Source: Limnomonas spitsbergensis
Lineage: Eukaryota; Chlorophyta; Chlorophyceae; Chlamydomonadales
DNA: 64,000 bases
Reading direction: 5' to 3'
Assembly: GCA_037349105.1 (NCBI GenBank)
Contig: JAYJMM010000035.1
Location: forward strand, 992,001 to 1,056,000
Shown here: piece by piece, positions 726 through 59,500 of the stretch
How positions within the stretch are numbered: position 1 is the first letter of the stretch
Layout of the letters: every line of letters starts with the position of its first letter
Notes under the pieces: generated by a model
The model's input: the letters and a program-made list of their open reading frames with translations, nothing else
Told to the model about the DNA's origin: nothing
The model's database searches: none
Made by a program: the position numbers and the translations under genes

Positions 726-3700
726 CTGGGCAGGAGACGAGCAGGGAGGTGTGGTGAGGGGGGAGGGATCAGGGTGGGGAGGGGGAGGCTGGTGGAGGAG
801 GTCACGGACGTGGCAGTCAGGGATCAGGGGGGAGAGAGGTGGAAGGCGATGGAGTAGGATGTAAGGGATGAGGAGGGAGGTGGGTGGGGATGGACGTGAC
901 AGTCAGGGATCAGGGGGGAGAGAGGTGGAAGGCGATGGAGTAGGATGTAAGGGATGAGGAGGGAGGTGGGTGGGGATGGACGTGACAGTCAGGGATCAGG
1001 GGGGAGAGAGGTGGAAGGCGATGGAGTAGGATGTAAGGGATGAGGAGGGAGGTGGGTGGGGATGGACGTGGCAGTCAGGGATCAGGGGGGAGAGAGGTGG
1101 AAGGCGATGGAGTAGGATGTAAGGGATGAGGAGGGAGGTGGGTGGGGATGGACGTGGCAGTCAGGGATCAGGGGGGAGAGAGGTGGAAGGCGATGGAGTA
1201 GGATGTAAGGGATGAGGAGGGAGGTGGGTGGGGATGGACGTGACAGTCAGGGATCAGGGGGGAGAGAGGTGGAAGGCGATGGAGTAGGATGTAAGGGATG
1301 AGGAGGGAGGTGGGTGGGGATGGACGTGACAGTCAGGGATCAGGGGGGAGAGAGGTGGAAGGCGATGGAGTAGGATGTAAGGGATGAGGAGGGAGGTGGG
1401 TGGGGATGGACGTGACAGTCAGGGATCAGGGGGGAGAGAGGTGGAAGGCGATGGAGTAGGATGTAAGGGATGAGGAGGGAGGTGGGTGGGGATGGACGTG
1501 ACAGTCAGGGATCAGGGGGGAGAGAGGTGGAAGGCGATGGTGTAGGATGTGAGGGATGAGGAGGAAGGTGGGTGGGGATGGACGTGACAGTCAGGGATCA
1601 GGGGGGAGAGAGGTGGAAGGCGATGGTGTAGGATGTGAGGGATGAGGAGGGAGGTGGGTGGGGATGGACGTGACAGTCAGGGATCAGGGGGGAGAGAGGT
1701 GGAAGGCGATGGTGTAGGATGTGAGGGATGAGGAGGAAGGTGGGTGGTGATGGACGTGGCAGTCAGGGATCTGGGGGGAGAGAGGTGGAAGGTGCTGAGA
1801 TCATGTTAACCTGCACAACACAGATCTGGAGAAAACAGATATGGAGAATACAGATATGGAGGATACAGATATGAAGAATACAGATATGGAGAATACAGAT
1901 ATGGAGAATACAGATATGGAGAATACAGATATGGAGAATACAGATATGGAGAATACAGATATGGAGGATACAGATATGAAGAATACAGATATGGAGAATA
2001 CAGATATGGAGGATACAGATTTGGAGAATACAGATATGGAGAATACAGATATGGAGAATACAGATATGGAGAATACAGATATGGAGAAAACAGATATGGA
2101 GAATACAGATATGGAGAATACAGATATGGAGGATACAGATTTGGAGAATACAGATATGGAGAATACAGATATGGAGAATACAGATATGGAGAATACAGAT
2201 ATGGAGAATACAGATATGGAGAATACAGATATGGAGAAAACAGATATGGAGAATACAGATATGGAGAATACAGATATGGAGGATACAGATTTGGAGAATA
2301 CAGATATGGAGAATACAGATATGGAGAATACAGATATGGAGAAAACATATATAGAGAATACAGATATGGAGAATACAGATATGGAGAATACAGATATGGA
2401 GAATACAGATATGGAGAATACAGATATGGAGAATACAGATATGGAGGATACAGATATGGAGAATACAGATATGGAGAATACAGATATGGAGAATACAGAT
2501 ATGGAGAATACAGATATGGAGAAAACAGATATGGAGAATACAGATATGGAGGATACAGATATGGAGAATACAGATATGGAGAATACAGATATGGAGAATA
2601 CAGATATGGAGAATACAGATATGGAGAAAACATATATAGAGAATACAGATATGGAGAATACAGATATGGAGAATACAGATATAGAGAATACAGATATGGA
2701 GAATGTGTACCTGGAGAATGCAGATCTGACCGATGCTCTCGTAGCCCAACGTCTTGTGGTACATCGGCTGCTGCCTCAGCTTCACCTTTTGGCGTGGACC
2801 TCCAGCAGCGGTCGGCAGCAATGCCGGCGGTTGCGGCATCGTAGGGGTCTTTGACAGCTCCTCGGCCACCGCTGCCAGGAACGTCTGGCCATCCGGATCC
2901 CCGCGGCATGCAATCATCTCGCAGAGGCCAGGAAGGCAAGCGGCCGCAGGGCCTGCTCCTCCTACTTGCCCGACCGCCTGCCTCCCCATGAAAGGGGCCA
3001 GCGTGGAGAAGGCCTGCGGCAGCGCGGGTCCCAGCAGGGCCCCAAACCTCAGCCGATCCAGATCGCGCGCTGTGCCCCGCAGCTTCTGAACCTCCTCAGG
3101 CTGCCTTTGCTGGCGCGCCTCCCGCCTGCAACATGCATGGATGCCGAGGCTGAGCATGCGGCACGCCAGCTCAAGCGGGTTGGCGATGCTGGGGGGCTCC
3201 ATGCTGCTCAGCAACCCACTTGTCTGCTGACCGGCAGTGGCTGGGGAGAGACTGGGTTGAGGCTTTGGTGTTGCTCGCCTCGGCCCAGCTGCTTTTGAGA
3301 GGCACAGGTAGGCCGTGAAGGAGGGGAGCAGGTACACGGCGCCAGCACATGCCTCGCTGACCATGATGCCATCCAGCGCATCTAGACGCTGCTGCCAGAA
3401 GCTGAGGATAGTAGGAGGGGAGGAGGTACGAAGGTATGGATGTATGGACGTGGAGAGGCGGTATGGAGGAGAGAGGACATGGTGAGATGGGGAGGAGGCG
3501 GACTGGGGAGTCAGGGACAAAAGGAGTTCAGAAGGTGAGAACGTGACAGGGGCGTCTTCACTTTATTGATGCTGGCCATAACCCGTGCTCCTACAAGATG
3601 AAGGCGACCTTCACCTGAATGAGGGGCTCCCTCACATCCTGGTTACCCTAACCCCCTAAAATACCACAGGTCCTGGCAAGTGCTCTGGCCAAGCAGTCAC

Positions 3701-56565: not shown

Positions 56566-59500
56566 CTAAGTAGACAAAAGGGGTGGGGGAGGGGGAGAGA
56601 GGAGCTTGTTTATCCAAGGTTTAAGCTCAAAGGGACCTTTATTTGCAGTCCCCCCCAAAGTTTGTCTGAGAGTGCTTCAACCACAATTCAGCTACATTAC
56701 AACCTCCTGCCGGAGTGGCTTGATGCTGCCAGCCCTGCTGCTGGGGCCACCGGCTCTAGACCTGTCAAGTTTCCGTCCCCATTGACCCAGCAGTAGCAGC
56801 CTCTCCGTCTGCCAAAATGGTTCAGATACTGTTGCACACAAGTGTGGCTGCCCATGCACCTAGGCACACTGCTGCCTACCAGGATAAGCCAGGTTTCCTC
56901 CTGACCAAGTTGATCAACCCAGTGCTGAGTTATATGTAATTCAACAGCCTTTGTGCGCACCAGACCGCTACCTTACAACAGGCAGCTGGTCAGCCACAAC
57001 CGGGCTAATGAGGACCTAACCTACGACCAGTGGACCAAGCATTAGGCCTTGCTGAGGCAGGCCCCCCCCGCTATGGGTTGTAGGCTTGTGGCAGAGTTGT
57101 CGCCGAGCCGTAGCTGAAGCGCGTTACACATCACACTCACCTGCGCCCTGGCACACTCAACTCGTAACATGCACCCTGACACATTGCACAACACACTGAC
57201 ACATCACACTGACCTGCGCCCTTGACGAACGCATCCACATGCTCCGAGGGCACGTCGAACACGGCACCCTTGCCGTCAGCAGTGAGCGTCATCTGGTTGA
57301 CGAGGTTCAGGGTGTCCTCTTCTACACGGCAGGCCTTCCTGCATGGTTCAGCGTTTTATACTTGAAGAAAGCATTCGACGGCAGTTCAAGGCAGGCGCTC
57401 GGGACCTGCCAGACCTCACCCATACATAACATACTACCGGTAGCTAAACTGCATACCTTGTACCCCCCCCCCCCCAACCCACCGCCCCCCCTCCCCCCAA
57501 GATAGATATTTACCTCAAGTAGCCCCACACCGCAGAGGGCGATGCCACTTCATGGTCGCACGTGAACAGCAGCGTCGTGCACCCCTCGTTTGCGTTGATT
57601 AGGGAGCGCGGTCGCATGGCGGTGATGCCCGTGATCTTGGCCAGGGCCTTGGCCAAGGCTTCCACTGGGGAGGAACAGCTCTCAAGGAACTGTGCGGCAG
57701 CGGTCCTAGCGGGAGGACACACGGGAGGAGGGGATAGTGGGTGATCTTGGCCAGGGCCTTGGCCAGGGCCTCCACAGGGGAGGAACAGCTCTCAAGGAAC
57801 TGTGCGGCAGCGGTCCTAGCGGGAGGACACACGGGAGGAGGGGATAGAGGGTGATTAAAACCCTTAACCCTAAATTAGGCTAGTTACGGCCGAGCTAAAC
57901 GTAAGTATGGAGGGGAAGCTTTCCAGGAAGTGCATGGCAAGGAAGCTTAGAGAGTTGAGGGGAGAGGGGGAGAGCCTTTTGAACAAACGAATGCCATGAG
58001 CGGGGAAGTGGCCGCCGCCGCCATGCAACAGACCCGTCTGATGGACGGCTGTGCTAGCAGTGTCGCAAAACCATTGCATGTGCACTCAAACAGGCTCCCC
58101 ATTCATACAACTTCACACCATTTTCACTAAGGAAAACCTATCATCCACCCCCCCCTGCCCACCACACATATAACAAGTACAGCTTTCCCACTCCCTTCCC
58201 TGAAACTCAGAGGGGCTCCGCCGTCTGGGTTAAGCTTCAGTGTTCAAGGCTTCGACCCCCCCCTCTCCCACTAAATCTGAAACCCACCGTGCTCCCCCAC
58301 TCAAAAAACCCCTCTCCCCCTCTTACCCAATGAAACAAGCCCTCTCCCCCGCCCCCCAGCTCAAAGAAGCCCTCTCCCCCGCCCCCCAGCTCAAAGAAGC
58401 CCTCTCCCCCGCCCCCCAGCTCAAAGAAGCCCTCTCCCCCGCCCCTCAGCTCAAAGAAGCCCTCTCCCCCACTGTCCCGATGTAACAAGCCCTCTCCCCC
58501 GCCCCCCAGCTCAAAAGAGCCAGCTCCCTCGCTCACTCAAAGAAGGGCACCACTGTCTGGTCCACATCGGCAAGCATCTCAATCGCGCGCTGAGCTGATA
58601 TGGCCGCCATGTCCGCCGGTTGAGGGGCACCGATGCGCTCAAATTTCATGCGGCCCTTGGACTGCGGGTTGGTAGAAAAACATGTCGCACATGACGTAAG
58701 CAGGGGGCCATGGCATGTGTATGTATCAAGCTTTGTGCAGCTTAAGGCCTAGGAGAGGGACAGTATAACACACAATGCATGATGTGTAAACAGGCGGCCA
58801 TGCTATGCCATGCCAGGCCATGTTATGCCATGGTGTGTAAACAGGCGGCCATGCTATGCCATGCTATGGGGAAGGGGTGGGGAAGGGAGGGGACGGATCA
58901 GTGCAGAGCCGCTACGGCCCCCTCAACAAATTGGCCCCTCATCAACCTCTGTGCTTGGGACAGAACATGTGGGGAGGGGAGGGGACTCAGGGGAGGGGAG
59001 GGGACTCAGGGGAGGGGAGGGGACTCAGGGGAGGGGAGGGGACTCAGGGGAGGGGAGGGGACTCAGGGGAGGGGAGGGGACTCAGGGGAGGGGAGGGGAC
59101 TCAGGGGAGGGGAGGGGACTCAGGGGAGGGGAGGGGACTCAGGGGAGGGGAGGGGACGCAGGGGAGGGGAGGGGACGCAGGGGAGGGGAGGGGACTCAGG
59201 GGAGGGGAGGGGACTCAGGGGAGGGGAGGGGACTCAGGGGAGGGGAGGGGAGTCAGGGGAGGGGAGGGGAGTCAGGGGAGGGGAGGGGACGCAGGGGAGG
59301 GGAGGGGACGCAGGGGAGGGGAGGGTGTTTAGCTGTCCCAAGATCCCCAAAGTCGCAGTGGACCCCAACTCTTCATCCTCTATGTTATTACCTCTATCTG
59401 CGCAGGCATGTACTCCATCCTCCGCGTCACTAGCATGATGCTGACGCCAGTCTTGCCTGTGAGCAGGGTGTGAGCAAAGCGTGGACAGGGTGTGGGCAAA

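Follow-up and report, generated by a model that had tools for sequence, protein, structure and literature searches.

Local copies of exon ends and splice sites inside the introns of the snow alga Limnomonas spitsbergensis

We analyzed a 64,000-bp stretch of the genome of the snow alga Limnomonas spitsbergensis (C35:992001-1056000, hereafter the window), in which introns carry copies of their own splice boundaries together with some of the adjoining exon bases. The genome sequence comprises 260.2 Mb in 124 contigs; the published assembly is given as 260.248 Mb in 124 contigs. According to the accessible parts of the genome paper, the species shares a clade with Chlamydomonas eustigma and two Antarctic strains and has a mean intron length of 788 bp, and these parts contain no mention of boundary copies that we could find (PMC11228838).

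Three genes, all on the minus strand like the boundary features listed for the window below, are concerned. Introns were placed by homologue searches followed by a custom spliced aligner with C. eustigma proteins. Gene A (1-35799, running beyond the low end of the window) is homologous to C. eustigma P0001 with 48% identity in the searched region and is presumably a SEN1-type and UvrD/TRANK1-like helicase. Its N-terminal exons above 35799 are uncertain in the spliced alignment, and its intron between 487 and -5808 (window coordinates) is 6.3 kb long and consists over much of its length of a 41-43-bp array. Fragments only were found elsewhere in the genome when paralogues of gene A were sought to compare the same introns. 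Gene C (56318-64000, running beyond the high end) encodes a DEAD-box helicase with a PF08152 domain and is 78% identical to C. eustigma P0020. Gene B is marked by a putative donor at 49916 and a putative acceptor at 44548, which are mutually in phase and show GT and AG; a homologue search for it returned none at E ≤ 0.001. A first-pass annotation of the window had placed boundary copies in three unrelated genes, which is certain for A and C, whereas B lacks a homologue.

Homology supported 41 introns, 27 in gene A and 14 in gene C. Before counting, we removed the first, poorly conserved N-terminal introns of gene A, in-frame pseudo-introns (alignment gaps) in its long exons, one such gap in gene C and the uncertain stretch 32867-32494; where an adjacent exon was too short or unknown, n is smaller than 41. 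The splice-site weights of the aligner derive from a gene finder seeded partly with strings at the sites of the first-pass annotation, and exact agreement of boundaries is therefore not wholly independent of it, whereas the protein homology is. Trained on the window, this gene finder did not have the power to build complete gene models in random stretches; a retrained version supplied the exons for other contigs.

Spliced alignment placed ten of the twelve boundaries named in the first-pass annotation exactly: donors 2711, 15700, 18095, 23829, 27080 and 30751 and acceptor 21189 with P0001, and donors 57214 and 58537 and acceptor 57705 with P0020. The other two are those of gene B, without a homologue found. 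Copies with exon bases, as had been claimed for all of them, are present at 11 of the 12 sites, the exception being 23829, where only an intronic array was seen. In the copy alignments the units measure 15, about 30, 77, 110, 113 or about 175-183 bp, include 9 to 86 exon bases and show identities from about 61% to 100%.

Arrays of many copies lie at donor 2711 of gene A (1820-2711) and the putative donor 49916 of gene B (45683-49938). In the former, a 15-bp unit resembles the last 15 exon bases and Tandem Repeats Finder (TRF) counted 59.0 copies at 1820-2704; in the latter, a 113-bp unit contains 25 exon bases and TRF counted 37.3 copies, and the earlier estimates of about 59 and about 38 copies thus hold. 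Shorter series follow other donors of gene A. Donor 15700 (15142-15700) has copies at about 15567-15554 and 15419-15340 and a weaker one at 15177-15142, donor 18095 (17452-18095) has decayed copies at about 17916-17879 and 17504-17452, and at donor 27080 (26810-27080) a 77-bp unit with 16 exon bases has three more copies at about 27018-26951, 26909-26846 and 26834-26810. At donor 30751 (30344-30751) a degenerate 33-bp array is accompanied, at about 30429-30344, by a copy that includes 31 exon bases. A 409-bp tandem duplication at 13962-14781, whose copies are 99.8% identical and which marks a very recent event, also lies within the intron that follows donor 15700. Donor 23829 (23463-23829) abuts a 22-bp intronic array in which an exonic part was not demonstrated, the best match beginning at the last exon base and the exon-only query giving p = 0.26.

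On the acceptor side of gene A, the exon at 21189 (21189-21384) starts with SAFIQGRSGTGK and has a copy with 38 exon bases at about 21384-21294. A second, older and more decayed copy of this acceptor at 21703-21778 (score 20.5) and copies of donor 22679 (22451-22679) at about 22585-22513 and 22491-22451 (score 18) are additions to the first-pass list. The putative acceptor 44548 of gene B (44548-44880) has exon-head copies at about 44688-44638 and 44880-44815. In gene C, donor 57214 (57126-57214) has a single copy of 9 exon and 15 intron bases at about 57149-57126, for which the match across the boundary covers 23 of 24 nt (p ≤ 0.001) and the exon-only match of 9 nt gives p = 0.12. Acceptor 57705 (57631-57855) lies in a 110-bp tandem duplication that is about 96% identical and includes at least 70 exon bases, and donor 58537 (58294-58537) adjoins a 30-bp array with the last 9 exon bases (p = 0.02). 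Further boundary cases lie past the window at 64136, 64302, 67037, 68061, 68650 and 69638 (window coordinates). Local tandem duplication that takes in the splice site, as first described, is thus supported: it affects both donors and acceptors, occurs in several genes and shows every degree of decay.

The duplicated exon bases encode residues which, judged by eye, are common to C. eustigma: CILQ at 2711, where the last 15 exon bases encode ICILQ and the C. eustigma counterpart reads LCILQ; VYVDE at 18095, which ends the exon as in C. eustigma VYVDEVQDL; FRFxVI at 15700; IGFLKDP at 30751; SAFIQGRSGTGK at 21189; and a stretch of 22 residues at 57705. The exon is therefore the original, and the intronic copy was made from it. 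If, by exonization or intron sliding, the intronic repeat had come first and the exon end had been recruited from it, exon end and intron copy would also share sequence, as they do at the 11 sites. This order of events is highly improbable, however, since the duplicated bases keep the coding phase besides encoding these shared residues, and C. eustigma exons end at the same residues at 2711, 18095, 15700, 30751, 21189 and 57705.

Mismatches were counted in 24 copies from 14 boundary cases, which were picked for having copies and are not independent (four come from one array). In the exonic part, they numbered 46/289, 43/294 and 83/285 at codon positions 1, 2 and 3, respectively, and there were 15 indels, as expected for an unconstrained copy of a constrained exon. 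Decayed tandem exon duplicates or alternative exons, once or still spliced, would likewise account for the higher mismatch at third positions and for copies spanning 55 to 86 exon bases (64136, 64302 and 57705), and the gene finder indeed called some boundary copies as exons. The indels, the presence of one exon end per copy and the often small exonic share of 9 to 40 bases argue against this origin, which we consider very unlikely.

The first-pass annotation had proposed to compare matches of a boundary to its own intron with matches to other introns. We did so by a rank test in which the 40-nt exon tail or head was matched to its own intron and to 40 other introns, and a hit was scored when the own intron was best. 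For donor exon tails (last 40 nt) this was the case in 11/41 introns (expected 1.0, P = 2.9e-9) and for acceptor exon heads in 5/41 (P = 0.003). Boundaries thus match their own intron more often than other introns, which is the opposite of the outcome that the first-pass annotation had named as refuting. Reverse-complement controls gave 3/41 (P = 0.08) for donors and 2/41 for acceptors, controls taken 40-80 nt inside the exon 1/29 and 1/29, and wrong-end controls 3/35 (P = 0.053) and 1/35. Two of the 11 donor hits (24617 and 67960) match the exon tail only and do not reach the boundary, and the clear boundary-spanning case at 27080 is missing from the 11 because of ties. When the own-intron matches of 40-nt exon tails of gene A were compared with those in 300 length-matched stretches of other introns, 7/27 were better than all of them (p ≤ 0.0033), as was that of a single acceptor head, 21189; reverse-complement controls fell below 0.01 in 2/27 and 1/27 cases.

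Introner elements are dispersed insertions that create introns. They share with the boundary copies the association of repeats with introns, and differ in that the algal copies are local and come from the neighbouring exon. The counts of our whole-genome DNA searches, in which common words were skipped, are lower bounds. The 27080 and 21189 units had no match outside their home loci among the matches listed, in line with the first-pass view that the copies, unlike introners, are local. The 113-bp unit of gene B has one other listed locus, a further array at C35:978924-980101, which lies on the same strand of this contig at a distance of about 58 kb and includes the putative exon end; gene B could be a pseudogene or could have been duplicated. 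The 64136 query matched elsewhere, among the matches listed, only at three places on contig C114 that P0020 also hits, with exon and early intron present once each and the later copies missing, which suggests either that the array expanded once those genes had separated or that it has decayed there. The three places matching gene C are C114:1280782-1280954, 1416838-1417010 and 1430856-1431028; two of them, 14 kb apart, have identical protein scores.

For the 15700 query, the matches listed included 39 dispersed ones, all to the stretch between the first two boundary copies and none to the copies themselves. This dispersed repeat at about 15441-15538 measures roughly 60-95 bp, and by eye a similar stretch occurs near 21440-21500. 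An origin of the copies from dispersed elements, introner-like or other, that were inserted into introns could claim this repeat as an instance, sitting as it does within a series of boundary copies. In all five queries run, however, the boundary copies were confined to their own gene, and for those searched no families of similar sequences making introns at unrelated loci were found; an origin from such elements is extremely unlikely. Equally unlikely is an artefact of assembling noisy long reads. Near-identical arrays can be mis-sized in continuous long-read (CLR) assemblies, but the identity of many copies lies well under 95%, so that they cannot represent duplicated reads, and according to the accessible text of the genome paper (PMC11228838) both long and short reads were used for polishing. 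The window assembly is very probably a long-read assembly already, with the boundary cases present in it.

For a view of the genome at large, we turned to ten other contigs and used 15 of their 10-kb stretches (L006-L020). Boundaries here were predicted rather than placed by homology, the exons counted were at least 100 nt long, and a match within 900 nt past the exon was scored at p < 0.02. By the look of their proteins, 28 of 103 predicted exons were shortlisted, four were dropped and 24 were tested. A match in the own flank was found for 6/23 tails and 6/21 heads, compared to 1/23 and 1/21 for mid-exon controls; reverse complements and wrong ends each yielded 2/23 and 1/21. When ten joined proteins were compared with Pfam, two passed the cut-off (a mitochondrial carrier with E = 1e-48 and a sugar transporter with 1e-13), four gave weak matches and four none. 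With all 96 candidates of at least 100 nt, unfiltered, 21/73 tails and 25/80 heads matched versus 16/73 and 15/80 mid-exon controls, a weaker contrast because many predicted exons are repeats. Among the 64 exons with non-duplicated middles, 7/46 tails and 12/51 heads matched, with 2/46 and 2/51 for reverse complements; mid-exon hits are zero in this set by construction, as the filter uses the same mid-exon test. Because of the repeats in the unfiltered set, our conclusion is based on the exons chosen by hand and on these 64. One locus with 101 predicted exons on one strand (L012), a suspected array, was kept out of the null pools and contributed one tested exon. The stretch C3:500001-510000 (L005) was left out; it is a 10-kb degenerate satellite with periods of 23, 46, 91 and more and 36% G+C, compared to about 54% in the genome. 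The pattern thus recurs on other contigs at loci with predicted exons, and direct, local exon-to-intron copies exceed controls there as well as in the two homologue-supported genes.

The copies had initially been called boundary-specific, which a profile of duplication along the 41 introns does not bear out. For this profile we determined the share of 40-mers with a match in the own intron at p < 0.02 as a function of distance from the boundary. On the donor side, it was 3-7% at 20 to 120 nt inside the exon (1/35 at 40 nt) and reached 12/38 at the end of the exon, 14/41 at the edge of the intron and 20/38 to 21/35 within the intron, 120-200 nt from the boundary. The corresponding values on the acceptor side were 0-11% (1/35 at 40 nt, 0/29 to 4/37 at other offsets), 5/38, 11/41 and 15/38 to 16/35. 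The profile lacks a peak at the boundary, duplication being more frequent in the interior of introns. A bias of donors over acceptors (12/38 versus 5/38) was considered and dropped in view of the 6/23 versus 6/21 at the other loci.

Local matches within 600 nt were found at p ≤ 0.005 for 74/200 intron, 29/210 random genome and 10/200 exon-interior 40-mers, and at p < 0.02 for 109/200, 84/210 and 22/200, respectively. Since random genome 40-mers also match locally, duplication is not confined to introns. In a simulation that tracked position labels only (150 introns per setting, growth from 300 to 800 nt, decay, exonic change forbidden), uniformly placed duplications with a median of 20-30 nt produced boundary copies on the donor side in 20-42% of cases and copies from deeper in the exon in 2-9%; in other settings boundary copies reached up to about 80%. 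Uniform placement thus yields comparable boundary counts at some settings, and no special boundary process is needed. A process in which splice sites or their transcription promote duplication would fit the fact that donor and acceptor boundaries are both affected in many introns. With uniform random duplication and selection against exonic change giving comparable counts, and with duplication commoner inside introns than at a splice site, we regard such a process as unlikely.

We consider it very likely instead that local tandem duplication is frequent in non-coding DNA, and that duplications overlapping exon ends survive since the exon-proximal splice site works. Stretches of about 15 to 180 bp, the size of the boundary units, would repeatedly be duplicated in tandem in non-coding DNA. 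A duplication overlapping a splice boundary would leave the exon and the adjacent splice site intact at its outer edge, and the second copy of exon end and splice site would land inside the intron. With the exon-proximal site still in use, as the kept reading frame implies, the mutation would be neutral and could persist; some copies would then expand into minisatellites, while others would decay by substitution and indel. Selection would eliminate duplications that lie wholly within exons. The boundary cases would then be the visible edge of an intron-wide growth by tandem duplication, a process that plausibly explains the large introns. The unit structure of the copies agrees with tandem duplication as the underlying mutation, and we infer that most copies are neutral and that selection acts inside exons. 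A list of 131 tandem duplications was compiled; many are parts of arrays, and few clean two-copy cases are available in it for breakpoint microhomology.

Several observations weigh against frequent local duplication with neutral survival. The excess of mismatches at third codon positions would also fit a past coding phase of the copies. The exonic part of the copies is 80.2% identical and the intronic part 81.4%, whereas under constraint on the exon the exonic part would be expected to be the more similar of the two. GT is intact in 8/17 donor copies (a ninth is split by a gap) and AG is kept in 6/7 acceptor copies; because many copies keep these dinucleotides, competing splice sites exist, and neutrality is thus assumed. 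The exonic overhang rarely exceeds 40 nt (1/35 at 40 nt on the donor side), which is below many simulated settings and at the low end of the range, and an extra constraint on this overhang is possible; nevertheless, long overhangs of 56 to 86 nt occur at 57705, 64136, 64302 and 44548. Finally, the median rank of the own intron among 40 others is 17 for donors and 16 for acceptors, and most boundaries show nothing.

Tandem repeats that span exon-intron boundaries have been described before, contrary to the initial statement that no named description exists. In the accessible parts of the two reports, those of amphioxus Adh3 bear the name mirages and others are described from globin genes (PMC3087553), a further case is given for PGBD5 (PMC3902484), and regular splicing seems undisturbed by them (PMC3087553, PMC3902484). 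The amphioxus mirages (Adh3, the globins BflGb6 and BflGb9, troponin C and PGBD5) are, as far as these parts go, boundary-spanning tandem repeats on the donor or the acceptor side, with units of about 10-160 bp and AG/GT signals in many copies. The same is seen in the alga, where both types of boundary are affected (11/41 donors and 5/41 acceptors) and where tandem units with both exon and adjoining intron sequence were found except at 23829, 24617 and 67960. The two systems differ in that they belong to different kingdoms and in that about a fifth to a quarter of the sampled exon ends are affected in the alga, whose copies run from fresh to barely recognisable. The amphioxus reports, in the same parts, offer reverse transcription PCR (RT-PCR) that suggests regular splicing as well as haplotype length variation, whereas the algal cases described here come from the DNA of one assembly.

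In potato RdRp, a tandem duplication likewise crosses the intron-exon boundary, but there, according to the accessible part of the report, an intron was gained (PMC4974935), whereas in the alga existing introns grow. Ordinary intronic minisatellites are also local tandem arrays that expand and decay, and they differ solely in that the founding unit of the algal arrays includes an exon end and splice site. A report of boundary copies in algae was not found among the titles and abstract openings listed, with most subscription papers and bioRxiv preprints out of reach. The kind of structure is thus already known as mirages, and what is new here is the lineage and the frequency.

Other features noted in the window are a 409-aa open frame at 40294-41523, without a Pfam match and by eye similar to a transposon-borne recombinase, and a core histone by Pfam at 54305-54778, by eye H2B. 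Predicted proteins that look H3-like and H2A-like lie past the window at 73892-74246 and 79837-80196 (window coordinates). All of these are on the minus strand.

More tentatively, tandem duplication that includes splice sites might be a main engine of intron lengthening throughout this genome and perhaps in relatives, which we hold to be possible but rather less probable than the contrary. Traceable copies would then accompany roughly a fifth to a quarter of exon ends, introns would largely be layered self-duplicates, the spliceosome would pick the true site from among intact copies nearby by position, and the copies would provide a permanent reservoir for cryptic exons and new introns. The results suggest that mirages are not an oddity of lancelets, that they can be frequent in a distant lineage, and that they offer a measurable route of intron growth. 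The exon-derived bases act as a built-in tag that shows local duplication, its direction and its rough age, and the intact decoy splice sites at known distances represent a natural experiment on site choice by the spliceosome. In such genomes, gene finders will call boundary copies as exons.

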